Source: a virus
IMG/VR virus record: IMGVR_UViG_3300039354_000258
Location: 1 to 25,785 of that record
Direction: 5' to 3' (one strand)
DNA length: 25,785 nt
Within the stretch, counting starts at the first letter, position 1, and every line of letters begins with the position of its first letter. The position numbers were made by a program, and so were the translations under genes. The notes below the pieces were generated by a model that had not been told where the DNA came from, ran no database searches, and was given only the letters and a program-made list of their open reading frames with translations. Positions 1,453-24,358 of this stretch are shown piece by piece.

Positions 1453-4400
1453 TTATGACGTTATTTTTACCATAGGTCTTATTCTATAAGAATAACCTAA
1501 TCTTTTATTATATATCAACCTAAAATTAAGGGGCTTTTGTTCGTGGGACGAAAACACAAAGTTTTGATCGTTAATGTAGTTATTATCATCTAATGCATCA
1601 ACAGAATCTACGCTTTCTACTTGAGACCCTTTACCTTTAATCCTCTGTGTATATAGCTTAATTTGGCTAATTCCAAACACACTTACTAAGTTCTTTCCAA
1701 TATAAAGTTGGGCATCATCGGTTAGTATTGTTTTATCATCAGCTGAATTTGCAGCTAGCACATACTTTGTAATAGTATCTAACACACCGTCAGCACTTAA
1801 TTTTTTATTTATTGTAAAATCTATATAGAAGTCTAATACAACTCTATTCTTATCCTCAAACTGTACAACATCTGTCGTATTTGTAGAGTTAGCTAAAATA
1901 TCGTCTAATTCTTCTTCTGTTCTTACACGAGTAACGTCAAAGTTTAACATTGTATAACTATCTTTAATCTTCATAATAGTTGAAGCTAAGTAAGATCTCT
2001 CCTCTTTAGTTTCAAATGTTCCAGGAACTAATTCCGCAAGACCACCTGATAAAGCCCTAGTGTAATAGTTTTTATCCCATGAGGATTTAAACACATGCAC
2101 ATCTTTCTTATCGATAGCAACCTCTCCAATTAATGGATATAATGGTGGTTTATCAGAAGATACTGATAATTTAATTACACCACTAGATTTGAATTCATTT
2201 ACTTTTCTATAGAAATGATTTCTAATATAACCCCATTGGCTATCGTGTGTACCTCCATCGTAAATAAATCCTAAGTTAAATGCAACACCACATCTATTAT
2301 ATCTCTTGTAATAATCTTTAGCTAACTGAATATCCTCAGTGCTAGTTAAAGAGTGTTTATACATTTGCTCTTCTAATTCTAACTCAAAGATATTTGAAGT
2401 ATTTTGAAGAGTATTTGTTTTCATGTGTGCATATACATCTGTAAATGTTACAACAGGAGTTGTGTCAATAGTATATCCACCATTATGTCTAATTAAGAAC
2501 GGGTAATAAGTTCTAGTAAGTCCTAGATTAAAGCCAATATTACCGGAAGATAATTTAAACGATTCTGGTTTATCATCATCTACCTCAGTATTAATTTCAG
2601 CTTCCTTAATAATTTCAACACCATCTTCTAATAGAATGATAAATTTATTAAGAGCCACTGTACCGTCTAATTCTATAGTTGAATACTTAACATTATCAGG
2701 GTTTCTTAATAACATTGTCGCCATATCTTGAGCTCCTAAGGACTCTAAGATAAATTTATATGCATTAATACCACCGCCTTTGTAAACATATCCAGCATTA
2801 TATTGTAAGTACCCTGGTAGATTATCTAACGTTGTTTCTACTTCAGTTCCATTTGTAATATCTTGAGGAGGTCTTGCAAGTAATATCTCAGTTTGTCCAC
2901 CTACATTAGAAATATCTAATTGAATTTTCTGAAGTCCGAACGCAGTATTTATATCTACAATAATACTTCCGTAATCATCATCTTCGTTTTTATTGATTTG
3001 TTCTAAGAATTGTGGAACACTTCCATCGGCATGCGTTAAACCATTTACTATTAAATAATTATCAGCAGATGGATCCGAGAAGTTAGCACCTGTTAAATCC
3101 AGATGTCCATCAACTTTAATATCAGAATACTTAAATGTACCCTCTTCATTATTCCATACTAAAGAATGATTTAATTCATATAATAACTTTCTAGTTAGAG
3201 TTTGGTCTGCCCATAAATCATCTATTCTTAAAGATATAAAGAATACTACAAACTTAAATTTCTTATTTTGTATTACCTCATATTCGATACCGTTAGAATC
3301 CTCTGATGTTTTTACATTTAATACAGTACTAAATCTATATCCATTAAATTCAGAAGACTTAACAAAATCAACCGGACTTGTAGATGTAAATTCCTTTCTA
3401 GATTTAAATATAACTTTTAGACCTTTGAATATAGAATCAGCAAACGCAGTATCATTACCACCGTTAACTAATGTATATTTTTTCTGTCTATTAGTTTTAA
3501 CAAACGTCTTGTAAGAATTATCACCTTTAGTTTCAAAGCCTTCAGTTACAAAGAATCTATCAAAGTAATCATAGTCAATGCTTTTAAACATAGAAGGAGT
3601 CATTTCAAACCCTTCCATAAAGTTAAGATAACTAAACGATTCATTTAATCTGTATTCCGGGCTTGTTAAAGTACCAGTGTTTTCTTTAAGGTGTTTAGGT
3701 AGGTTATTAATATAAAACCACTCGTGAGTCATTCCCAGTCTATCTCGGCCTGCAACAGAAAGATCTGATGCAAAGTTAGATCTACCAAATGCCTCATTTG
3801 CATTTAAGTAATAAGGTTGTTCTCTAACAGTTAATGTATCTTTTAATACCCACTTATTAATTGAAGGAACTACTCTACTCCTTATAGAGTTTTCTTTTAA
3901 ATAGTTCTCATTTAATCTATCATATTCACTTTCAACTAAATCCTCGTTAAACGTATCTGTTATTTCATCTTCTAATACTCCACTTAATCCTGAGAAGTAA
4001 CTAGCAGGAGCTACTGAATAATCAGTGTTATCTCTTTCTCCAAACGGATATATGTCACTTTGATTATCTAATTCCGGCTCATAGTTGATTTCAGAAGCAG
4101 TTTCGTATTTTAATTCTTTTAGATCCGAGTTTGAAGTATCATAAAAATCAAAGTTCATATCATGAATATCAAATGCAGAAAATAAACCTAATGTCACTAG
4201 GTTATCTGCAAAAACATTTACTTCACCAGATCCTATTGTATTTTTCTTATTTAATACTAGTTTCTTATATTCTAAAGGTAACCTTTCAATATCATCAACA
4301 ATATCAATAACTTGATTGTAAACCCCTTGTGAACTTGTTTCTAAATAGTCACCAATATTAATATCAGCGACAGAGTCTAACGTTGCTAATACAGATTTGC

Positions 4401-7400
4401 CACCTGAATTACCACCATTAAAGAAATATATCTTACTGTTTTTAAATACCTCAGAAGTATTACCAGTTAGTTGTAATCTTAATACGTTTCTAGGCTCATA
4501 CGTGAGCTCGTTGTCTCCCTCAATAGTTACCCAGTCATTTGCGTTATCGTTCGGCACTGCAATCCCTGATTGCATCAATCTATATCCAAGTACGTCGTTC
4601 TTAATATAAAGATGATCTGCACCATCGTATGTTAATGCAGTGAACCCATTGTCTACTGAATTAATAGATTTAGTTAGTGCTGCTGCAATCTCGTCGTTAG
4701 TTCCATTAGTTGAAAAGGCAGTTGTATTAAAATGCCCTGCTAATAAAGCATCTGATCCGAAGAACATATTATTTGAAAGATCGTAAGGTACTTGTGTATA
4801 CTCAATTCTAGCTAATGTTGTATTAGTACTAGAATTTGGGGTTATAGAAGGCTTTAACGGTCTTAGCGTACATTTCTTTTCATAGAATATAATATCATCA
4901 CCGTCTGCTTTCCAATAAAGATTATCATCAATCCCAAGCCCTTCTAATACATCAACAGTATCTTCAACAGTATTCTGTAGTGTTAATAAATAATCTACAT
5001 TACCAACAGTTTCTACAAGAGTGATTCCTAACTTAAAAGTATCTCCAGGAGTAAATCTTGTAAAATTAATTCTATAATCCTGTTCTTTAGAAGGGAATAT
5101 AGCTACTCTATCATTATTAGCTGGAGTTCCGTTAATTGTAAGTTTAACAAAATCACTACCTGCTGATTCGTTTACTAAAGTGTCAATAGATCTACCAACA
5201 GCTGCAAGTTTAATTTCTGCAGGTATTGTGTTAGAAGAATCTTCAACTCTTAACTCTGATTTTAAAGTATCATAAAACGTTGGAGAAATCTTATAGAAGT
5301 TATTAGAAATATGAGCATAACCTAGTGTTGGAGTAGCTGTAATTAATTCTACAGGAGGTATTGCAGATTTTGCATCATCATTAATATATGAATTTAAAGC
5401 TTTAAACTTAAGTAGTCCATTAGTAGATGACTCTAAAGATCCATAACCTGAATCAATATCATTTACATATAGACCGAAATATCTGTTTACAGCATAATCT
5501 TCAGTACCATCATCGTCAAATAAAAACTCTAAATTGATAATGTTAGCACATGCTAGTTTGTTTCTTTCAAAACCTCCAGTAATTAAATCATTTTCATTAA
5601 TAATAGTCTGGTCTTGTCTTACAAAATCATTAAATAGGTATTCACCCTTATTTGTAAACCCGCCCTGTGTTAAATCAATACCATTAAAGTTTGTTCTTTC
5701 ATTTTCACTAAAGTTTGCACTAACTGGATTGCTTGGAAATAACTCAGACTGTACATGGTTTCTAATATAAGTACCAATTGCAGATTCTCTAGTTAAATCA
5801 AAGGTTTTTATTAACTCACTGTTTTTTAGAATTTCATCCATGTTATTAAAGTTACTTTGAGAATCAAAGTCTAAAATAGCAGCTGGATCGCTAACTCTAA
5901 ATATTACAAAATTATTAGGTATATTTTTATCTAACCAAATAGGAGCTAACATTCTAAAATCTTCATTGTGTAATTTAGAATAATTATACGTAGTTCCGTA
6001 GTGATAATCCTCTTCAATCTGCTTTTCAAAAGATTCTTGGACCGTAAGATCTGAGAATCTAGATTTCACATTGTATATTAAATCTGATGGAGTCTTATTA
6101 GCATTAAAAAACTTAGCTAAATCATAAGACCATTTACCATCTTTATTAACCGACCATTTTTTATATTCAACAGCTGCTAACTCTTTACTAGCATCAATAG
6201 ACTCAATATACATATTGTCGTTACTATTAACTACTAATTTAGCATTTGTAGATAATTTAGGGTTTGTTCTCAATAAAGGTTTAGATAAATTATCTAATTC
6301 ATAATTCTTTTCTAAGTCAAAGTTAGGTATAGATCTATTAATAATTTCAGCATCATCTATTCCGTCTAAAACAAACTCTGAGAAGTTTTGCTCATCTAAT
6401 AAACAACTTCTACAATCTTCTCTATATTCTATTACTGCTCCGCTTGTAAATCCTAATTCAACTGGATTAATTTCAATAATCCTAATATCATCACCATACT
6501 CTGGTCTAGATAATAAAATATTAACAGCATCATCATAATTAACTGCAAATATTTTATGCTGAATAGTAACACATTCTAACATGCTATCACCTCCGATATT
6601 TATTGCAACGCCATTGTTTTGGCTTGGCTCTATAACATCTATTAGTTTTTTAATATACGACGTTGAGTTTGAAGCAAACGTATGTAATCCATCTGTTAAA
6701 TATAAACTATAATATGGTTTTCCTGCTTCTATTTTAGCAGAACATGCATAAAATGCATAAAACACATTTACTCTAGATTCTAAAAGTTTCTCTTGGTCAG
6801 ATATTTCACATTGATCTCCAGGGAGTCCAAGGCAATAAGTTGAATTACCAGCTGGTTTAACAAACTGTGTATTACAATCACCTAATATTGAATTTGTATT
6901 TGCATACTCTAATGTACTATCAGTCTGATTAACACCAAGCCATGAATAAGTATATGAAGCATTTTCTGTACTTAAGTAACCACTATCGTTTTCATTGTCC
7001 CATATTGCAAATCTAAGACTAGGCACGTATCCATTCTCTGGATCACTTATTGCGCCGTTTGCTTCATCAACTGCAATAAAAGTAGTATTGTCCCATAACC
7101 CATCGTAGTTAACTTCACTAGCAGTCGCTTCTGTAGTGTATATTAATATTTGATTTTTAACTACGTACTCTAGGGCTTTTTGGTGTGTTGAAAGATCAAC
7201 ATAGAAATCACCGCCCTCTATATCATCGTAACGAGCATCTATTCTAGCCCATAAGTTAACTAAAGTCAGGCCATCTTCTCCAGCAAGACAAGCTGCGTCC
7301 ACTGCTAATCTATTGTCTTGACTATAATAAGCCTTAAAATTAAATGTTACATACTCTATTGGTACCGGGCATAAAAATAACTTTACAGGATTGTCTACGT

Positions 7401-10400
7401 CTGTTAAGTTATCTTCCCATACACCTTCGCCATTTTCGTTTGTTGTAAACTCATAATATATGAATTGATTATTAATATTTTTTCTAGAGCCGTCATTGTA
7501 GAAACCTGGTGATACACATAAAGATGCCGGAGCAAAATAACCATCAGCATTTCTATACTCACCCTGGTTAGCATAATATTGACTAGTAAATAATTGTCCA
7601 CCTGCAGCTATTACAGCAGCAAGAGTTGTAGGACTACTGCTAGTGTCAATTACGTTTTGGTAAACAATAGTCTGACTAACTGTGTATTCTAATTCTTCGG
7701 CACATATCTCATCAATATTATTAGAGAAGTTAATTTCAAGAGGCCATGCATTATCTAAACTAGTTTCACAATCAATAACTTGTATAATATCTCCATTAGC
7801 AGCTACCTTAGCAGCTCTAATTACTGGCTCTCCGCCTATATCTTGTTGAATTGAAATCCAAGAGAAAGAATCAGCTGATTGTTGAGCGCTTGGTTGCGCA
7901 ACATCATCGGCACTTAATACATTAGTAGTATATAATGAATCATTGGCTGCTAGCCCTGTAATATCCGTAGTTTCTGCTGCGTCTAAGTAAACATCAACAG
8001 ACCTATCATCTTCACATGCTTGTGCAGCAGTTGGTCTCCAATTTGTAGATGCGGTTATACCGCTAATATATGCAACCCCTGTTGCAGTTATTGTCAACTC
8101 GTATGAATCTTCTCCACCATATTGGTCCACGACCTTAATAGTATAACCTTCATTTACAATCTGGTTCGGATTAATATCCCATGTGCCTGTACTATATGTC
8201 CATACACCGGTGTTTTCGTTTATGTTAAGATCTCCTTGTTGTGACTGTGCACCACCAGATACAGGTACCCAAACAGAGGACCATGTCAACGAATCGCCAT
8301 CTCCATCATTTGCAGTAATATTTTCTGAAGCAGAAGATATTGTATCGTACTGATTTACTGTTCTAGTTATTGACGTTTGGTTAGTATTGCCATTAATAGA
8401 AATTATAGGATTTGTGTTTGACGCAGCAGTCATGGTGATCGTGATCTGAGCTACACTAGATCTTAGACCCTCTGTGTCTTCTGCTTTATAGTAGAAAGTA
8501 TCAGACTTTTGTGGTTCAAGAGGAGTCATTGTGTTTCCAGTATAGGTATAAGTTAATATACCATTACTAGCATATACTATATTACCATACTGCCCAAATT
8601 TAGGTTGGCCTACGTCAAATTGAGCATCGCCAGTTCCATCGGCAGTAGACCAGTAGTAGGTTAAATTTTCATCTAGATCACTATCGTCAGAAACAAATGC
8701 CCAAAGATTAATACCAGGTGCCTGAGCATTTTGCGTAGCGCCTGTAATAGACCCGGCAATTGCATTAACCCCTGGCGCTTGATTAAGAGGTGCTGTTATT
8801 GTTAAACTAGCAGTATATTCAGGAGAATCATCATTCCCATCATTTACTTTATATTCAAAACTAATAGTCTGTTGACCCGCCGAACCAACTGCAGTATTAA
8901 GTTGTATCTGGGCAGTTAAAGTGTTAGGACCTCCTGTTAGTGTATATGGAATATTATTAGAAATAATATTTGTAGATGGATTACCTGAATTATCTATTAA
9001 TATAGATTGATTACCTTCTATTTCTAACCCACCAATATCAGTAATTATTATATTTAAGTCATCATTATCTACGTCATTGATAGCATTACCTGTCCAACCT
9101 CCTGCGCCAAAATCAAGAAAGTCTAAATTAATAGTTTGCTGACTAGCAGACCATGGTATACTTTTACTTATATCATCACCCGTCGGTGCTGTATTACCAG
9201 CAGTTTGTTCTATTGTAAAAGTCTGTGTTGTTTCATTAGGATCATCAGGGTGTACAAGCATTACTACTATCGATCTAGTACCTGTCCCAGTATTTGCTGA
9301 TGGAGAAAAGATTACATCTCCACCTGCAGTACTAAAAGAGTTAGTACTTGCTGTAAGCCACGTGCTTAACTCTGTGTTTGCGGTATATGTAATATCAGTA
9401 TTAACATCAAAGGCGCTAGTTGCCCCAGTCATAGTAACCTCCTTCTCTAGGTTCTGGCCTGCACTAGGCCCAAAAACAAGAGTATCTGTATTGTTAAGCG
9501 AAATACTTGCAGAAGCCTGGCCACCAGTTACCTGAACAGTACAGGCAATCGTATTACCAGAATTAGAATAACCAGCAGGTATGTTAACCGTTAGTGTATA
9601 ATCATAAGTACCATCTAAATATAAATCATTATTAGAGTTAGTAATACTAGCAAAAGTTGCACTGCCGTTAGTTGAAAAGCCGGCAGCCGTAATTTGTTCA
9701 CCAATAACACCATTAGCAATTACTAATGTCTCTGTAGAACACGTAAATTCTGCTAACGTTGCGTTAGTTGCGTTAGTTGCAGCAGTAGTTGCGTTAGTTA
9801 CACCAGTCGTTGCAGCTATATCACCAGTAAAATCACAAGAAATATCATCACCTCCGGAATTTGAATAACCACTTGTAGGTGGTTCTATTTGAGTAATTAC
9901 ATAAGTTGTAGTTCCATCACCATTATCGTCGTAAGTATATATGCTCGGGGTTATTACATAGTCCAAATTACTAGGAGACTGTAGCCAGTTAACTGAAGTT
10001 GCTAAAATTGTATCTCCGACATTACCATTAGGAATCGTTGGGCCTGCTGCCGCACAATTATATTCTGGTAGTGCTTGTGTTGTTGTAGTAACTGTAACAT
10101 TTTGGATTACAACATTAAGTGTTCCATCGCTAGAATTATTATACCCTGCAGGTATATTAATAAATGCACCGTAAGTGCTATTTCCAATTGAATAATTTGT
10201 TGGAGCATAAGAAGCAATAGTAAGTCCAGAATTTACAGTACCTGCTACGAGGTCACCATCTGCACCGCCTGGAATATTAAGGCCTGCAAGCGTAGGAGTG
10301 AATGTTACCATCCCGTTGTTTAAAGTACTTACACTACCGTTACTGCTTATCTGTATAATCCAAGGGTATGGACTTCCCCATGTGGAGTTATTACCTCCAT

Positions 10401-10632
10401 CCCATATCCAATGCTTATTCTGCCCATTAAATGGATTCGTGAGGCCAGCATCTGTAAACACGTCTACACCTCCCCCTGGTTGTCCCGGAGAAGGGCCCGG
10501 GCCTGAACCTGAATCATTGTAATATATGACTGTTGTAGTTCCGTTAAAAGTGGGATTATTTTGAATCTCAGCTCTTGCTAACGGCAGAGTGTCGTAATAC
10601 GGTGTTCTTAAATTTACTGTTATAGTAGCCAT
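1453..10632 (-). CDS. Giant virion protein: adhesin-like N-half fused to structural C-half
   Basis: A 3059-residue protein. Residues 1-40 are a short head, followed by a Gly/Pro-rich hinge at about 42-55. About 105-370 hold three related beta modules ending in a G-Y-S/N-N-S signature. About 380-480 is a BACON-like domain. About 481-855 holds three cadherin/Ig-like repeats (N-x-A-P starts, DGDGDS and DVDND loops). About 855-1410 is a cysteine-rich region of unknown fold with a CRSC motif near 1409. The second half, from about 1440 (KPLLRTNPKL), is of a different kind: long, acidic/aromatic, with only three cysteines. I associate it with large conserved virion proteins of big myoviruses, but have no specific name. 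The position after baseplate genes and before a fibre fits a tail-tip or long-fibre component. The ATG at 10630-10632 follows a 68-base gap holding a hairpin, with no SD. Internal frames are shadows. Function is inferred. Confidence 0.85.
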   Translation of the reverse strand: MATITVNLRTPYYDTLPLARAEIQNNPTFNGTTTVIYYNDSGSGPGPSPGQPGGGVDVFTDAGLTNPFNGQNKHWIWDGGNNSTWGSPYPWIIQISSNGSVSTLNNGMVTFTPTLAGLNIPGGADGDLVAGTVNSGLTIASYAPTNYSIGNSTYGAFINIPAGYNNSSDGTLNVVIQNVTVTTTTQALPEYNCAAAGPTIPNGNVGDTILATSVNWLQSPSNLDYVITPSIYTYDDNGDGTTTYVITQIEPPTSGYSNSGGDDISCDFTGDIAATTGVTNATTAATNATNATLAEFTCSTETLVIANGVIGEQITAAGFSTNGSATFASITNSNNDLYLDGTYDYTLTVNIPAGYSNSGNTIACTVQVTGGQASASISLNNTDTLVFGPSAGQNLEKEVTMTGATSAFDVNTDITYTANTELSTWLTASTNSFSTAGGDVIFSPSANTGTGTRSIVVMLVHPDDPNETTQTFTIEQTAGNTAPTGDDISKSIPWSASQQTINLDFLDFGAGGWTGNAINDVDNDDLNIIITDIGGLEIEGNQSILIDNSGNPSTNIISNNIPYTLTGGPNTLTAQIQLNTAVGSAGQQTISFEYKVNDGNDDSPEYTASLTITAPLNQAPGVNAIAGSITGATQNAQAPGINLWAFVSDDSDLDENLTYYWSTADGTGDAQFDVGQPKFGQYGNIVYASNGILTYTYTGNTMTPLEPQKSDTFYYKAEDTEGLRSSVAQITITMTAASNTNPIISINGNTNQTSITRTVNQYDTISSASENITANDGDGDSLTWSSVWVPVSGGAQSQQGDLNINENTGVWTYSTGTWDINPNQIVNEGYTIKVVDQYGGEDSYELTITATGVAYISGITASTNWRPTAAQACEDDRSVDVYLDAAETTDITGLAANDSLYTTNVLSADDVAQPSAQQSADSFSWISIQQDIGGEPVIRAAKVAANGDIIQVIDCETSLDNAWPLEINFSNNIDEICAEELEYTVSQTIVYQNVIDTSSSPTTLAAVIAAGGQLFTSQYYANQGEYRNADGYFAPASLCVSPGFYNDGSRKNINNQFIYYEFTTNENGEGVWEDNLTDVDNPVKLFLCPVPIEYVTFNFKAYYSQDNRLAVDAACLAGEDGLTLVNLWARIDARYDDIEGGDFYVDLSTHQKALEYVVKNQILIYTTEATASEVNYDGLWDNTTFIAVDEANGAISDPENGYVPSLRFAIWDNENDSGYLSTENASYTYSWLGVNQTDSTLEYANTNSILGDCNTQFVKPAGNSTYCLGLPGDQCEISDQEKLLESRVNVFYAFYACSAKIEAGKPYYSLYLTDGLHTFASNSTSYIKKLIDVIEPSQNNGVAINIGGDSMLECVTIQHKIFAVNYDDAVNILLSRPEYGDDIRIIEINPVELGFTSGAVIEYREDCRSCLLDEQNFSEFVLDGIDDAEIINRSIPNFDLEKNYELDNLSKPLLRTNPKLSTNAKLVVNSNDNMYIESIDASKELAAVEYKKWSVNKDGKWSYDLAKFFNANKTPSDLIYNVKSRFSDLTVQESFEKQIEEDYHYGTTYNYSKLHNEDFRMLAPIWLDKNIPNNFVIFRVSDPAAILDFDSQSNFNNMDEILKNSELIKTFDLTRESAIGTYIRNHVQSELFPSNPVSANFSENERTNFNGIDLTQGGFTNKGEYLFNDFVRQDQTIINENDLITGGFERNKLACANIINLEFLFDDDGTEDYAVNRYFGLYVNDIDSGYGSLESSTNGLLKFKALNSYINDDAKSAIPPVELITATPTLGYAHISNNFYKISPTFYDTLKSELRVEDSSNTIPAEIKLAAVGRSIDTLVNESAGSDFVKLTINGTPANNDRVAIFPSKEQDYRINFTRFTPGDTFKLGITLVETVGNVDYLLTLQNTVEDTVDVLEGLGIDDNLYWKADGDDIIFYEKKCTLRPLKPSITPNSSTNTTLARIEYTQVPYDLSNNMFFGSDALLAGHFNTTAFSTNGTNDEIAAALTKSINSVDNGFTALTYDGADHLYIKNDVLGYRLMQSGIAVPNDNANDWVTIEGDNELTYEPRNVLRLQLTGNTSEVFKNSKIYFFNGGNSGGKSVLATLDSVADINIGDYLETSSQGVYNQVIDIVDDIERLPLEYKKLVLNKKNTIGSGEVNVFADNLVTLGLFSAFDIHDMNFDFYDTSNSDLKELKYETASEINYEPELDNQSDIYPFGERDNTDYSVAPASYFSGLSGVLEDEITDTFNEDLVESEYDRLNENYLKENSIRSRVVPSINKWVLKDTLTVREQPYYLNANEAFGRSNFASDLSVAGRDRLGMTHEWFYINNLPKHLKENTGTLTSPEYRLNESFSYLNFMEGFEMTPSMFKSIDYDYFDRFFVTEGFETKGDNSYKTFVKTNRQKKYTLVNGGNDTAFADSIFKGLKVIFKSRKEFTSTSPVDFVKSSEFNGYRFSTVLNVKTSEDSNGIEYEVIQNKKFKFVVFFISLRIDDLWADQTLTRKLLYELNHSLVWNNEEGTFKYSDIKVDGHLDLTGANFSDPSADNYLIVNGLTHADGSVPQFLEQINKNEDDDYGSIIVDINTAFGLQKIQLDISNVGGQTEILLARPPQDITNGTEVETTLDNLPGYLQYNAGYVYKGGGINAYKFILESLGAQDMATMLLRNPDNVKYSTIELDGTVALNKFIILLEDGVEIIKEAEINTEVDDDKPESFKLSSGNIGFNLGLTRTYYPFLIRHNGGYTIDTTPVVTFTDVYAHMKTNTLQNTSNIFELELEEQMYKHSLTSTEDIQLAKDYYKRYNRCGVAFNLGFIYDGGTHDSQWGYIRNHFYRKVNEFKSSGVIKLSVSSDKPPLYPLIGEVAIDKKDVHVFKSSWDKNYYTRALSGGLAELVPGTFETKEERSYLASTIMKIKDSYTMLNFDVTRVRTEEELDDILANSTNTTDVVQFEDKNRVVLDFYIDFTINKKLSADGVLDTITKYVLAANSADDKTILTDDAQLYIGKNLVSVFGISQIKLYTQRIKGKGSQVESVDSVDALDDNNYINDQNFVFSSHEQKPLNFRLIYNKRLGYSYRIRPMVKITS
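9520..10312 (-). repeat. Three tandem beta modules in the giant adhesin
   Basis: Protein-level repeats of about 80-90 residues lie at roughly 10312-10089, 10073-9815 and 9757-9520. Modules 2 and 3 open with L-x-E-Y/F-x-C, then I-x-N-G-x-x-G-x-x-I-x-A, and close with G-Y-S-N-S-G followed by I-x-C. Module 1 keeps the INIPAGYNNS signature but lacks both cysteines. The paired cysteines in modules 2 and 3 could form a disulfide outside the cell. DNA identity between copies is low by eye, so the duplication is old or under diversifying selection. Confidence 0.7.
9754..9800 (-). repeat. Short 9-bp tandem repeat encoding an Ala/Thr/Asn linker
   Basis: The plus strand shows GCGTTAGTT at 9761-9769 and 9770-9778, a degenerate copy at 9779-9787, and another exact copy at 9791-9799. 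On the coding strand this gives an alternating Asn-Ala-Thr linker between modules 2 and 3 of the giant protein. A similar but diverged linker sits before the BACON-like domain of the downstream fibre (about 430-485). Such repeats can change length by slippage. Confidence 0.75.
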
Positions 10633-16313: not shown

Positions 16314-16877
16314 TTATACTATCGTTGCTTTGTGAGAAGCTACTACATACCACTTAGTGTTAAAACATCTAAGTGTTATAGTTGAGTTAACTGCGTCCAA
16401 TATAATACTCGTTGCTTGTAAAGCAGCTCCAGTATTTGCACCTAAAGATATACTTGCTGATGCTACACTTATTAATGTTACTTCTTGTCCATCGACTCCT
16501 ACAGGAATCACGAAGTTACCATCAATAAAGTATGTACCTTTATCTAAACTAGACGGTGCTAAATTAGTAGTTGCACTAGTTGCAGTACCAACGACACCTG
16601 ACTTGATAATTGAACCACCAAGGTTAATCGAGCTAGAGAAGGTTGCAGCAGTAGAAACAGTTGCACCAGATGTGTTTACAACAAATAATGTTGTTCCATC
16701 TACTATGCTTAGTTGTTGTGATGTAGCAGATGTTAAACCACTCATGACACCAGTCACCGGGTTTAAAAGAGCTGTTACACTTGCTAATTCGTCATTCAAT
16801 AATTCGAAATTACTATTAATAGTTGGTCTCGAAGAAGATACCGAATCTGTACCTAAAATTTCAGTAATGTTTGCCAT
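16314..16877 (-). CDS. Small fibre-like structural protein
   Basis: 187 residues. The first 40 form a docking-like head (NITEILGTDS, then INSNFELL) that resembles the N-terminus of the collagen-repeat fibre. The middle is Ser/Thr/Gly/Ala-rich beta sequence. The C-terminus (about 105-187) is a compact beta domain with VDGQEVTL and FNTKWYVVASH, a pattern often seen at the tips of phage fibres. It is shorter than T4 gp9 (288 residues), which also has an N-terminal coil and beta C-terminus; its position between the gp7-like and 646-residue genes would suit a gp9-like adaptor or short fibre. A 180-codon plus-strand frame covers the same DNA (16357-16899), but operon spacing (7-base gap upstream, ATG start, TAA stop) favours the minus-strand gene. 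Confidence 0.8.
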   Translation of the reverse strand: MANITEILGTDSVSSSRPTINSNFELLNDELASVTALLNPVTGVMSGLTSATSQQLSIVDGTTLFVVNTSGATVSTAATFSSSINLGGSIIKSGVVGTATSATTNLAPSSLDKGTYFIDGNFVIPVGVDGQEVTLISVASASISLGANTGAALQATSIILDAVNSTITLRCFNTKWYVVASHKATIV

Positions 16878-16884
16878 TTTATAT

Positions 16885-19683
16885 TTATTTTACTTTTAAC
16901 ATGTTGCGTTTTACAACGTTCTTATTTCCATACGTGTCTTCAGCTTCCAGTTGTATCGAGTATTCACCCGGTTCCTGAAAAATGTAAGTAAGCCACATAT
17001 TATTATAGTATATATCATTAATTTCTGGGTTAGTTATATTGGTGATAGTCCACTTTGGCTTTCTAGCACCAGGAAACTTAGAAATGTCAGTTGATATAGT
17101 TAAATGCGTTGATCTTTCGACCATCGCATAGTCTTTAAATACTTTTACGTTATCCCATGTTGGGTTATAGTGAACCACATGGACTTCTCCACTTATTGCT
17201 GAAGTAGGAGATTCTGTATCTATTGTAACGGATTCAAAATCATAAGTTTTTGAATACTCTTGTCCGGTACATATAATATAGTAAAACTGATCATTAGTAT
17301 CTATATCATCATCAGAGTCTATATCTTTAAATACAGGATTATAGTTAAATTTTGAAATTACAGGATCTATCGATGCCTCTAATTCATCTGCGATTGCTTT
17401 CCAACCAGCTACATCGTTAACACCAGTTGGTGTTGGAGACATAATAGTATGAGAACCTACTCTATTTACATTAGTCGTTGGATTCTTATGCGTAATCGCT
17501 AATATATCGCCTTGTTCAATCCAGTCTATTTTAAATGAAGCTGTCAAATCTGGTCCAACTCTTAAGTTTTCCCACCAGTTATGTTCAGTGTCTTTCCATC
17601 TAAAAGCACATTCATCCCATTGATAAGGTCCGGTTGTTTCAGAATATCCGGTATCTGAAAATACATCACCAAATCTTCTAACCGTAGAAAATCTAACGCC
17701 TTGATCTTCTTCTAAATGTATATAGTTAGCTCTGTCAAGCGTTTGGTATAAAGTTGCAATAGTATCTTCTACCTTTTGGGTATTGTCTTGTGGCATATCC
17801 CAGTAGCCTCCAGACTTATTCCAGTCTAAAGATTTAAGATTCCATGGAGTTGCATTACCTTTTGCATCAGTCTCTAACCATTTGTAAACTCCGTATAATT
17901 CTAATTCTTTTAATTTAACTTCAAAAAGATCTGACTTCTTATAGTAAGACATGTGTCCAAATAAATCATACATTCTCATTTCTATAGTATAGCTTCCAAC
18001 GTATGGTAGTGTAATTGGTAATCTTTTGTAGTCGTCGACAACATTTCCATCAGCATCTAAGTAATCAACAGGACCTCTGTATTCTTGATGAAATTCATTT
18101 GGTCCATCAATAATCCATTCAATTTCATAAACCCATCTTTTATACCAGTTGTTCCAAGTCACTTTTAAGTTTTGATTCGCATCAACTGCATCATCCCACA
18201 CAAAAGTAGCCTCATCCCAAATATCATCCCAAGACTCAGTAGAATCTAGAATAACAGGACAACCTATTGGTATATTAGTTTGTGAAAAGTTTTGATTATA
18301 TGATTCCATTGATCTATCATGATAAGAATCATAAAAACTTTCAAATACATTCTTTTCTTCAGATCTTTGAATATTTGTTAAACTAGCCTCTTTACCAACC
18401 TCTAGATTTAAGAACGTATCATAACTACTAGCTGCATCGTTCTGGTCTAATGTAGATTTTAAAACCATTGAAGTATCTTCAATAAAAAGATCTCTATCTC
18501 TTGGCCATACATCAAACTTAACCCTATGTCCCTCTGTAAAGAATCCAATTGGATTTTGAATCTTCCACATGTTTATATTCTTCTGTGTGAAATAGTCGCC
18601 TTCCCCTGTAATATCTACAATTTTAGCTTCGAGGGGTAAAAAATCTCTTTGTAATCTATTCTTTAAACCGTATAATTTGATTAGGACTTCTTCTGGTGTG
18701 AAATCAAAGACTTCATCAACATTAGCAAAATCCCATTGATCGAAAGTTCCGTTTGGTTCATTTAGTCTATAAACTAATGAGAACCTACTAGTTTTCTTTT
18801 GTGTTTTAGAAGGTACTTTAAATCTTAACCTCTTTCTAGTCATCTCACCTCTAACAGATGAGTTAGGCACTGGGATAGCATGTAGCTTACCGAAAGTTCT
18901 CGACGCGTTATCTACATTAATCCAATACTCTTTAAGTGTAATCTTATCATATCCAAAGAAATCAATAGCATTTAAGATTGCTTTATATGTTCCAATAAAA
19001 GGTTTAATGTTATTAAGCTCTAATAACATCTCTTTTCTCTTTTGGTTTAATAGTTGATAATCAGGGTGCATCTCAGAAATATCATGAGATTTAAATATCA
19101 TAAAGTCTTCAGCCTCTAATGAAGCACCTAAGTTACCTAATAGTACTTTAAATCTTTCATCCTCAGCTTCAACTTCACCGTAAAATTCTATTCTTGCAAC
19201 AACTGAATCCCCAGCTTTAATTTGTAAAATTCTCTTGTGGATACCAGCGTTTTCAGAGGATACTGCAATATTAATTTGAAAACCAACATTTAGGTTAGCA
19301 TTAATAGTCTTTAAGTAATTAGCATCTTGTGAATCGACTGTCTCTGCTGGTCCAAACCCAAATGATTGGGTTCTAAGCTCTTTTACATAAGCTTTACCAC
19401 CATCATATCGCATACCATACATGATAACATCTTTAGATTGGTCAGGTCTTAAGTTTTCCCAACTAAAATCTAATCCAGTAAGTGTATTATCTGGAGAAAG
19501 TGGTTTATTAATAACAGCATCGCCATTATACAAACACTCTTCCACAATAAATAGGTTTGCCGTTTCATACAGGTTCGTAGATACCTCAGGAAGATATACT
19601 TGTCCTTCCCATATACCGTCTGCGTCCTGAGCTAGTTGTAGCTCGTAATCCGTACCGTTAAAGAATCTTAAATTATTCCACAT
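16885..19683 (-). CDS. Baseplate wedge protein, gp7-position, with gpI-like segment and PKD-like domains
   Basis: 932 residues, near the size of T4 gp7 (1032) and in the same place after gp6. The N-terminal 1-190 is beta-rich. Residues about 208-260 read Y-x-x-L-x-x-x-R-K-E-x-L-L-E-L, then GTYKAILNAIDFFGYD and LKEYW. This resembles the conserved helix of tail protein I/P2 gpI families, which link baseplate to fibres. Two related tryptophan-rich segments start near 494 and 691 (F-x-W-D/K-D and a following I/E-W-I). PKD/Ig-like beta domains lie at about 521-584 (VGSYTIEMRMYDLFGH) and 874-932 (PGEYSIQLEAEDTYG). Its ATG is one base past the stop of the 90-residue gene. Wedge identity rests on synteny and the gpI-like segment; no T4 gp7 motif was recognised directly. 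Confidence 0.8.
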   Translation of the reverse strand: MWNNLRFFNGTDYELQLAQDADGIWEGQVYLPEVSTNLYETANLFIVEECLYNGDAVINKPLSPDNTLTGLDFSWENLRPDQSKDVIMYGMRYDGGKAYVKELRTQSFGFGPAETVDSQDANYLKTINANLNVGFQINIAVSSENAGIHKRILQIKAGDSVVARIEFYGEVEAEDERFKVLLGNLGASLEAEDFMIFKSHDISEMHPDYQLLNQKRKEMLLELNNIKPFIGTYKAILNAIDFFGYDKITLKEYWINVDNASRTFGKLHAIPVPNSSVRGEMTRKRLRFKVPSKTQKKTSRFSLVYRLNEPNGTFDQWDFANVDEVFDFTPEEVLIKLYGLKNRLQRDFLPLEAKIVDITGEGDYFTQKNINMWKIQNPIGFFTEGHRVKFDVWPRDRDLFIEDTSMVLKSTLDQNDAASSYDTFLNLEVGKEASLTNIQRSEEKNVFESFYDSYHDRSMESYNQNFSQTNIPIGCPVILDSTESWDDIWDEATFVWDDAVDANQNLKVTWNNWYKRWVYEIEWIIDGPNEFHQEYRGPVDYLDADGNVVDDYKRLPITLPYVGSYTIEMRMYDLFGHMSYYKKSDLFEVKLKELELYGVYKWLETDAKGNATPWNLKSLDWNKSGGYWDMPQDNTQKVEDTIATLYQTLDRANYIHLEEDQGVRFSTVRRFGDVFSDTGYSETTGPYQWDECAFRWKDTEHNWWENLRVGPDLTASFKIDWIEQGDILAITHKNPTTNVNRVGSHTIMSPTPTGVNDVAGWKAIADELEASIDPVISKFNYNPVFKDIDSDDDIDTNDQFYYIICTGQEYSKTYDFESVTIDTESPTSAISGEVHVVHYNPTWDNVKVFKDYAMVERSTHLTISTDISKFPGARKPKWTITNITNPEINDIYYNNMWLTYIFQEPGEYSIQLEAEDTYGNKNVVKRNMLKVK

Positions 19684-23044: not shown

Positions 23045-24358
23045 TTATGATTTTATTTTTTTACTTACCACAACTTCAGTTTCATCTGAGAATCTAACAT
23101 GAGGTCCAACCCCACCTTCTCTAAATATACCACCTTCCATTCTACCTTTAAAAATACCATCTCGTCCAAAAACAAAACAGTTTTTAACAGTTACGCTGCC
23201 ATGTACAAAACAAGATTCTATTTTAGAATCTATGATTTGACACCCTTTATATATTTGTGATCTTAATATTTGTGCTCCATTTATTTCGCCGCCATATATT
23301 TCACTATTTTCTATATTACCCGATAGTTCACAATCTATAAATTCAAATCCATCTAGCAGATATGCTGTTTTAAATTTACCATCTTTAACTTGAACAGTAG
23401 AATAATCTGAATCATAGTTAATAATACCTTCTTCCATTGTGCCAGTTGATAACAATTCTAATACTTTATGTTTAAACCTATCCCACTGTACATTAATTAC
23501 TGTAGGATTATCTTGTAAATCTACTAATATATCTATCTTAGGCCAATATTTATTTACGGCGGTATAGTCTCTTAGCATCTTCATTAAAGGTTCATTCTTT
23601 CTTAAAATACGCTGCAACTCTATTTTATTAGCAGAATTAAACTTTGGATCTCTACAAGACCTCCAAATAGCCATGATAAATCTATCTGCTAATGTTAGAA
23701 TATCTTCTTGTCTATCTTCATAGTTTTTACCACCAATATACCTAAATTCTAAATAATTACTTTGAGCCTTTTCAAAGTTAATACCGTAATATTTAGTATT
23801 TGCAAATGTAAAGTTATCCTTATTAATTAAATCGGCATTATAGTAAAATGCTTCATGTTTAGGCATAATCCACTTAATAGATTTTGCGTAAGTAGAATTC
23901 TCTCTATCCGGGAAATACTTATATACTCGATCTTCATCAAACTCAAGTATGAATTTCAACACGTCCATGTGCTGAATCATATTTGAATCTTCTAGAAAAT
24001 CAGGATTAAATGACATATTTAAGTGAATAGATGCACGATCTGATGTGTAGCCGTTTTCACGAATCCATCCTAACATTTTCACAATAACTAGCCTAGCGTT
24101 TCTATAAGGCATTGGACCAGTTACTAGTTCAATTAATCCTTTTCCACCTGACATGTCAGGTTCCATCTTAAACACATCTGCTGATGGTACAAAATCTGAA
24201 TGAGCCTTTTCTTCTAATTGAATTTTTCTATCTAATAGTTTAGACACAGACTTTACAGTCTCTTCTAGTTCTAAATTAGAATAAAACTCAAATTCGATAC
24301 CCATTTGGCTGGCAGCTAATACTTCTTGCCTTACTGAATTGCTTTTTAACTTTTGCAT
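23045..24358 (-). CDS. Amidoligase-like enzyme with C-terminal beta-helix-like repeats
   Basis: 437 residues. The N-terminal 300 match the putative amidoligase family (glutamine-synthetase-like fold, ATP-dependent amide-bond formation). GIEFEF is at 20-25, K-M-E-P-D-M-S at 64-70 leads into GLIELVTGP, SIHLNMS is at 110-116, and YGINFEK followed by NYLEFRYIGG spans 191-210; these are the expected metal/ATP-binding acidic and basic positions. Residues about 335-425 are short hydrophobic rungs (FEFIDCELSG, SEIYGGEING, SQIYKGCQIID), resembling a right-handed beta-helix or pentapeptide-like tail. The family usually joins an amine to a carboxyl group of a peptide or cell-wall unit; the substrate here is unknown. 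It is placed one base upstream of the neck gene, inside a structural operon. It could modify a virion protein or the host envelope, or be a non-catalytic relative. Confidence 0.72.
   Translation of the reverse strand: MQKLKSNSVRQEVLAASQMGIEFEFYSNLELEETVKSVSKLLDRKIQLEEKAHSDFVPSADVFKMEPDMSGGKGLIELVTGPMPYRNARLVIVKMLGWIRENGYTSDRASIHLNMSFNPDFLEDSNMIQHMDVLKFILEFDEDRVYKYFPDRENSTYAKSIKWIMPKHEAFYYNADLINKDNFTFANTKYYGINFEKAQSNYLEFRYIGGKNYEDRQEDILTLADRFIMAIWRSCRDPKFNSANKIELQRILRKNEPLMKMLRDYTAVNKYWPKIDILVDLQDNPTVINVQWDRFKHKVLELLSTGTMEEGIINYDSDYSTVQVKDGKFKTAYLLDGFEFIDCELSGNIENSEIYGGEINGAQILRSQIYKGCQIIDSKIESCFVHGSVTVKNCFVFGRDGIFKGRMEGGIFREGGVGPHVRFSDETEVVVSKKIKS

Follow-up and report, generated by a model that had tools for sequence, protein, structure and literature searches.

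Phage amidoligases, members of a family described by Iyer et al. in 2009 (as cited in PMC10580990), are annotated in many genomes. The published guesses as to their role, modification of the cell wall or of metabolites, come from early gene cassettes of podoviruses (LUZ24 gp16–gp22, tf, phiEco32, RIO-1 and PSA-HP1). In these cassettes, a protein of the same broad superfamily is encoded in the early/replication region in the company of glutamine amidotransferase (GATase), ATP-grasp and gamma-glutamyl cyclotransferase (GGCT) genes. The window analysed here, a 25,785-base stretch of DNA that is surely a fragment of a virus genome, holds an amidoligase-like gene without such partners: no GATase, ATP-grasp, GGCT or COOH-NH2 ligase gene was found among its neighbours, which encode S1, neck, gp25, gp6 and tail proteins, and comparison with hhalign revealed no relation of its product to LUZ24 gp18 or gp16.

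Closer similarity is seen to the amidoligase of Agrobacterium phage Atu_ph07 (AUZ94978, PF12224), which has the same glutamine synthetase (GS)-type fold and the motifs GxExE, EPDxS, HxN and ExR; the hhalign comparison gives an E-value of 4e-11 with EPD, HxN, KY and EFR aligned. However, the Atu_ph07 protein lacks the C-terminal β-helix of the window protein and has added sequence in its N-terminal half, and its gene is differently placed, adjoining a lysin-like gene near the portal, and a nucleotidyltransferase. The protein A0A6J5PQ40 from an uncultured Caudovirales phage (439 residues, BFVD model), annotated as 'uncharacterized', matches over its full length with a TM-score of 0.85 and has the same two-part architecture; as its sequence identity to the window protein is 21%, this architecture is itself conserved. 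Glutamine synthetase and gamma-glutamylcysteine ligase share the fold, and their catalytic residues come in the same order (ExE, acid, acid, His, ExR) on corresponding strands, but sequence identity is about 10%, the global TM-score is low and the β-helix is an addition of the window protein.

The gene is an intact open reading frame with an ATG start (Table 1), and the plus-strand translation of the same interval is riddled with stops. Against Pfam, its 437-residue product gives a single match, to PF12224 (Amidoligase_2) over residues 18–127, with a score of 24.4 bits against a curated cut-off of 22 bits. The cut-off is also passed by the relatives from loci L081 (24.1 bits) and L123 (26.9 bits), and the huge-phage members score below it. 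Among PHROGs, the match is to phrog_33777, of unknown function (E 3e-9), and a sequence search for relatives of solved structure found none. An AlphaFold model, for which 25 natural homologues served as input, has a mean pLDDT of 91.9. It predicts a GS-fold domain at residues ~10–235, a helical linker at ~236–304 and a C-terminal β-helix at ~308–434. Searched against the PDB with Foldseek, the model has glutamine synthetases as its top matches (E 4e-4, probability 0.99); the global TM-scores of 0.26–0.29 are low partly because the β-helix has no counterpart in GS. Against predicted viral structures it retrieves many 'Amidoligase enzyme' entries, including those of Atu_ph07 (E 2e-11) and tf (E 1e-5). 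The original prediction of a GS-fold ligase, made from the letters of the sequence, is thus borne out both by the profile match and by the modelled fold, and the motifs GIEFEF (20–25), EPD (66–68), SIHLNMS (110–116) and LEFRYIGG (203–210) are present where it had placed them. We conclude that the protein has a GS fold and probably joins amino and carboxyl groups.

The 'short beta rungs' that had been noticed after the ligase domain correspond to the strands at 308–434, which form the β-helix in the model. We term this domain pentapeptide-repeat-like rather than a member of that family. The window protein has no Pfam pentapeptide-repeat match, and those of its relatives are below threshold, the best scoring 26.8 bits against a cut-off of 38. 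Foldseek matches to the pentapeptide-repeat proteins AlbG and EfsQnr are weak, and compared with such proteins the repeat pattern is imperfect. The 5-residue periodicity in hydrophobicity is marginal (452 of 10000 shuffles were equally strong). The strand pattern of the models is compatible with five-residue rungs, and in that of a catalytically dead homologue, described below, it recurs every five residues.

Table 1. Coordinates of the features discussed. Coordinates without a prefix refer to the window; those with an L-number refer to other loci.
Feature	Coordinates	Strand	Basis and remarks
Amidoligase-like ORF, 437 aa, ATG start, intact	23045-24358	minus	ORF call, Pfam, AlphaFold model, Foldseek, conservation
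Codons 20-27 (GxExE; E22 and E24 predicted to bind metal)	24278..24301	minus	on model strand 17-27
Residues 66-72, EPDxSGG	24143..24163	minus	lost in dead clade
Residues 112-116, HxNxS	24011..24025	minus	model and conservation; H112 replaced in 5/5 dead lineages
Residues 204-206, ExR	23741..23749	minus	R206 kept in dead clade; E204 lost in 4/5 lineages
C-terminal β-helix, residues 308-437, pentapeptide-repeat-like	23048..23437	minus	DSSP of models; relatives match Pentapeptide_4 weakly
S1-domain (ribosomal protein S1-like) protein, 431 aa	24412..25707	minus	PF00575 E 7e-21; upstream of amidoligase, 53 bases away
Neck / head-tail adaptor, 290 aa	22171..23043	minus	phrog_211 E 3.7e-10; 1 base downstream
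gp25-like baseplate wedge subunit, 118 aa	21794..22150	minus	weak: PF04965 E 0.011, phrog_43 E 0.007; size and position fit
gp6-like baseplate wedge protein, 609 aa	19957..21786	minus	phrog_219 E 2.9e-31; Baseplate_J
Dead-clade homologues	L145:7376-8674, L154:6001-7302, L156:5229-6530, L172:6001-7302, L173:1633-2931		
Dead-clade necks with GNDNK C-terminus	L145:8686-9498, L154:7312-8118, L156:6540-7343		

The model has E22/E24, E66/D68, E77, H112/N114 and E204/R206 on consecutive strands, ordered as in GS. The GS order, which we take to be ExE, two acids, His and ExR, would make these residues equivalent to its catalytic set, with H112 the predicted counterpart of the active-site His by order and strand. 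The residues at all 27 inspected positions are shared by 84 of the 89 unique sequences, a set that includes Atu_ph07; those that do not conform are LR756504, Atu_ph07, which keeps the core acids, His and ExR and differs at other inspected positions, and one distinct dead clade. The GxExE motif is invariant in all active-type homologues, as is EPDxSGG with the exception of LR756504. All nine inspected catalytic positions fall within the 56 near-invariant columns among 437 (hypergeometric P ~5e-9), and the dN/dS of the gene is low, at 0.04–0.11. As the GS-type residues are identical in 84 of 89 homologues, down to ~33% identity, most members of the family are probably active, and we consider it very likely that the window's phage possesses an active ligase. 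In LR756504 (636 kb; L084:11998-13362), E66 is replaced by Leu (KILPD) in an otherwise intact amidoligase, which could mark the onset of decay or be a change that the enzyme tolerates.

In the marine lineage, the gene order is S1, amidoligase, neck, gp25, gp6, p90, p932, p187, p646 and p1215, and upstream of S1 there are more tail genes, encoding sheath/baseplate-like and hub-like proteins. The neck gene had been predicted to lie one base from the amidoligase gene, and a single base does intervene. S1 is the immediate upstream neighbour in 115 of 129 scored loci, with a gap mostly of 48–57 bases, and the neck the immediate downstream neighbour in 118 of 132, these loci being redundant and most of them fetched with the amidoligase; the slot between S1 and neck, gp25 and gp6 is also found in loci retrieved by gp6 alone. 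In nearly every locus, amidoligase and neck either are 1–11 bases apart or overlap slightly, as expected of one transcript. Elsewhere in the window, a 3059-residue minus-strand ORF at 1453-10632, adjoining a collagen-like tail-fibre ORF (1-1449), has no Pfam match and is probably a giant tail or adhesion protein, and a 180-residue plus-strand ORF at 16357-16899, antisense to a 187-residue gene at 16314-16877, is probably spurious.

Relatives are encoded in at least 547 IMG/VR stretches and in the huge phages LR756500 (462 kb), LR745206, LR756502 and LR756504 (635–642 kb) and LR756501 (735 kb); the text of PMC7162821 (Al-Shayeb et al.) makes no mention of amidoligases. One scan of genome contigs with two sequence patterns yielded no cellular relatives. 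In LR756500, extra genes are inserted among the S1, amidoligase, neck, gp25 and gp6 genes. About 2 kb separates the amidoligase from neck and gp25 in LR756504, and in the other 635–735 kb phages it is far off; S1 and amidoligase are unlinked in this size class. Since these phages have the gene outside the S1/neck operon, the operon slot is not obligatory. Homing-endonuclease-like genes are present near the amidoligase in huge phages (L084:16337-18130 and L085:13334-14122), the latter overlapping its 3′ end on the opposite strand, which may bear on its relocation. No amidoligase was detected in Lak, PAU, PTm1, pT24 or MaF61, despite their homologous neck and gp6 proteins, nor in Tenacibaculum phages. 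The existence of related neck/gp6 phages without a detectable amidoligase argues against a universal assembly factor. For PAU, PTm1, pT24 and MaF61, we considered whether the corresponding place in the operon hides an amidoligase and rejected this, as the ORFs there are no amidoligases and match p646. Prevotella phage Lak-A2 has a homologue of the window's S1-domain protein with 35% identity (L127:5947-7056). In Salicola phage SCTP-2, the C-terminal part of gene 125 (L087:10924-12744) matches the GS core (hhalign E 5e-11), and the adjoining gene 124 (L087:12741-14684) is a second tblastn match of gene 125; the two are possibly an unannotated tandem pair of divergent amidoligase-like proteins.

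In five sampled lineages (L145, L154, L156, L172 and L173), six to eight of the nine inspected catalytic residues are gone. The first such homologue was met in loci L145–L148, fetched with gp6, where it occupies the same slot with 29% identity; later searches added L154/L155, L156/L157, L172 and L173. The lineages are 53–81% identical to the reference member L154, and they constitute a single clade with one or few loss events. Taking the lineages in the order above, H112 is replaced by K, T, T, Q and N and E77 by S, C, V, S and R; D68 has become S or G, and E66 K, V or I. R206 and S116 are retained throughout the clade, and E204 in L145 alone, which also keeps E22 and looks like an intermediate state. 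The proteins are 432–433 residues long, their slot and neighbours are unchanged, and the model of a dead homologue (pLDDT 88.6) is GS-like by Foldseek. Between L154 and L156, pN is 0.11 and pS 0.70, giving a dN/dS of ~0.06 with dS near saturation; as pN is far below pS, the gene is under strong purifying selection and not a decaying pseudogene. A search of the clade for a relocated second intact copy found none on its available contigs, which reach 133 kb and are incomplete.

A tree of gp6 and neck together groups the marine phages, dead and active, to the exclusion of the active huge phages (support 81/82), with the dead clade nested inside the active ones. The placement of the dead clade is unresolved with gp6 alone and moderately resolved with the two proteins. 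On the strength of this nesting, the loss of the active site was probably secondary. Between the window protein and members of the huge-phage type, identity is 39–40% in the GS core and 26–33% in the β-helix; for the dead clade the corresponding values are equal, at 24–28% and 25–26%, so its β-helix is hardly more diverged than that of the huge phages. We read this pattern of sequence identity as a release of catalytic constraint in the dead clade with structural constraint kept. The dead clade keeps the gene, with its length and fold, in the same slot after losing the active site: catalysis is dispensable there and the protein is not, which suggests that the protein has a structural or scaffolding job in addition to ligation. 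We therefore lean towards a non-catalytic role as well, although the dead clade may also have acquired a new activity.

Candidate substrates were sought among the neighbouring proteins. All 64 distinct necks accompanying an active-type enzyme (marine, L123-type and LR756500) end at ...D[WFY][MF][MF]xS, with G or T in place of the final S in three, and the dead-clade necks are extended by GNDNK past the Ser at which the window neck ends. The neck C-terminus was nevertheless rejected as a ligation target: the necks of huge phages with an active enzyme have ...MVKK or ...MAR as their last residues, and those of PAU and PTm1, which have no enzyme, end where the window's does. A co-loss scan brought out no other neighbour protein as a prominent target. 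Among proteins with three dead-clade rows, the changed fraction of invariant positions is 37% for the amidoligase against 7–22% for the others. Of the 60 S1 positions that never vary in active phages, 52 are kept in the dead clade, and nothing points to a lost target. We found no paper giving a known substrate for a phage amidoligase, nor an isolate or a proteome of this lineage. It is quite possible, though we would not lean on it, that the substrate is a late or virion protein; the crosslinking or tagging of virion proteins, the modification of the envelope and the functional partnership with S1 raised in the original prediction are speculative, the partnership being one of gene position.

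A purely enzymatic reading is weakened by the keeping of the gene in a lineage that has lost its active site. Another reading, the published guess for the amidoligases of phiEco32, LUZ24-like and RIO-1-like podoviruses (PMC5498523, PMC10580990), would have the enzyme modify, at a late stage of infection, the host surface, a peptidoglycan peptide or a small metabolite, with the tail operon merely giving late expression. This seems to us rather improbable, as does the superinfection exclusion or control of lysis timing that such cell-wall or metabolite modification would serve: the podovirus cassettes sit among early/replication genes with partner enzymes, none of which adjoins the window gene, there is no hhalign relation to LUZ24 gp18, and it is left unexplained why a dead copy should stay in the slot. 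At the opposite extreme, the GS fold could have been recruited family-wide as a virion or assembly scaffold, with no member catalytic in vivo. The stable retention of the dead clade would fit, but the catalytic positions are near-invariant in every other lineage and only with an intact active site does the conservation of the GS core exceed that of the β-helix; we consider this explanation very unlikely.

RimK adds amino acids to ribosomal protein S6, and the amidoligase might similarly extend the phage S1, or a ribosomal protein of the host, by amino acids, favouring late translation. The S1 gene does lie directly upstream in the 115 loci counted above, and huge-phage S1-like proteins have been proposed to redirect translation (PMC7162821). 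Against this, the two genes are unlinked in the 635–735 kb phages, S1 occurs in Lak, where no amidoligase was detected, and the S1 of the dead clade has retained its conserved positions; a translation partnership is in our judgement unlikely.

There is about an even chance that the protein combines a role in virion assembly with, in most phages, modification of a co-expressed late protein or peptide. We infer the enzymatic activity, the part in assembly and the kind of substrate alike, the ligase chemistry because fold and residues resemble those of glutamine synthetase and gamma-glutamylcysteine ligase. According to this combined reading, ATP and metal ions in the GS-fold domain would activate a carboxylate to an acyl phosphate, with which an amine would react to form an amide. 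The β-helix would be a docking or scaffold domain, and the protein an assembly factor or minor virion component close to the neck and baseplate. In most phages it would also modify a co-expressed late protein or peptide, and in the dead clade it would act as a scaffold only. We put forward more tentatively, as a possibility, a bifunctional assembly amidoligase that is structural near the neck and baseplate, forms an amide on a late phage protein and has become a pseudoenzyme in one branch.

The amidoligase family was already known; what is new is the operon setting and the β-helix architecture, and of the new facts the dead clade tells us the most. In a widespread lineage of marine and huge phages, the amidoligase is fused to a β-helix, is encoded in a tail-assembly operon and is kept in one branch without its active site. 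The live and dead versions amount to a natural experiment, in which the part they have in common would reflect the structural role and the part confined to the live ones the chemistry, and which would bear on the post-translational modification of virion proteins.
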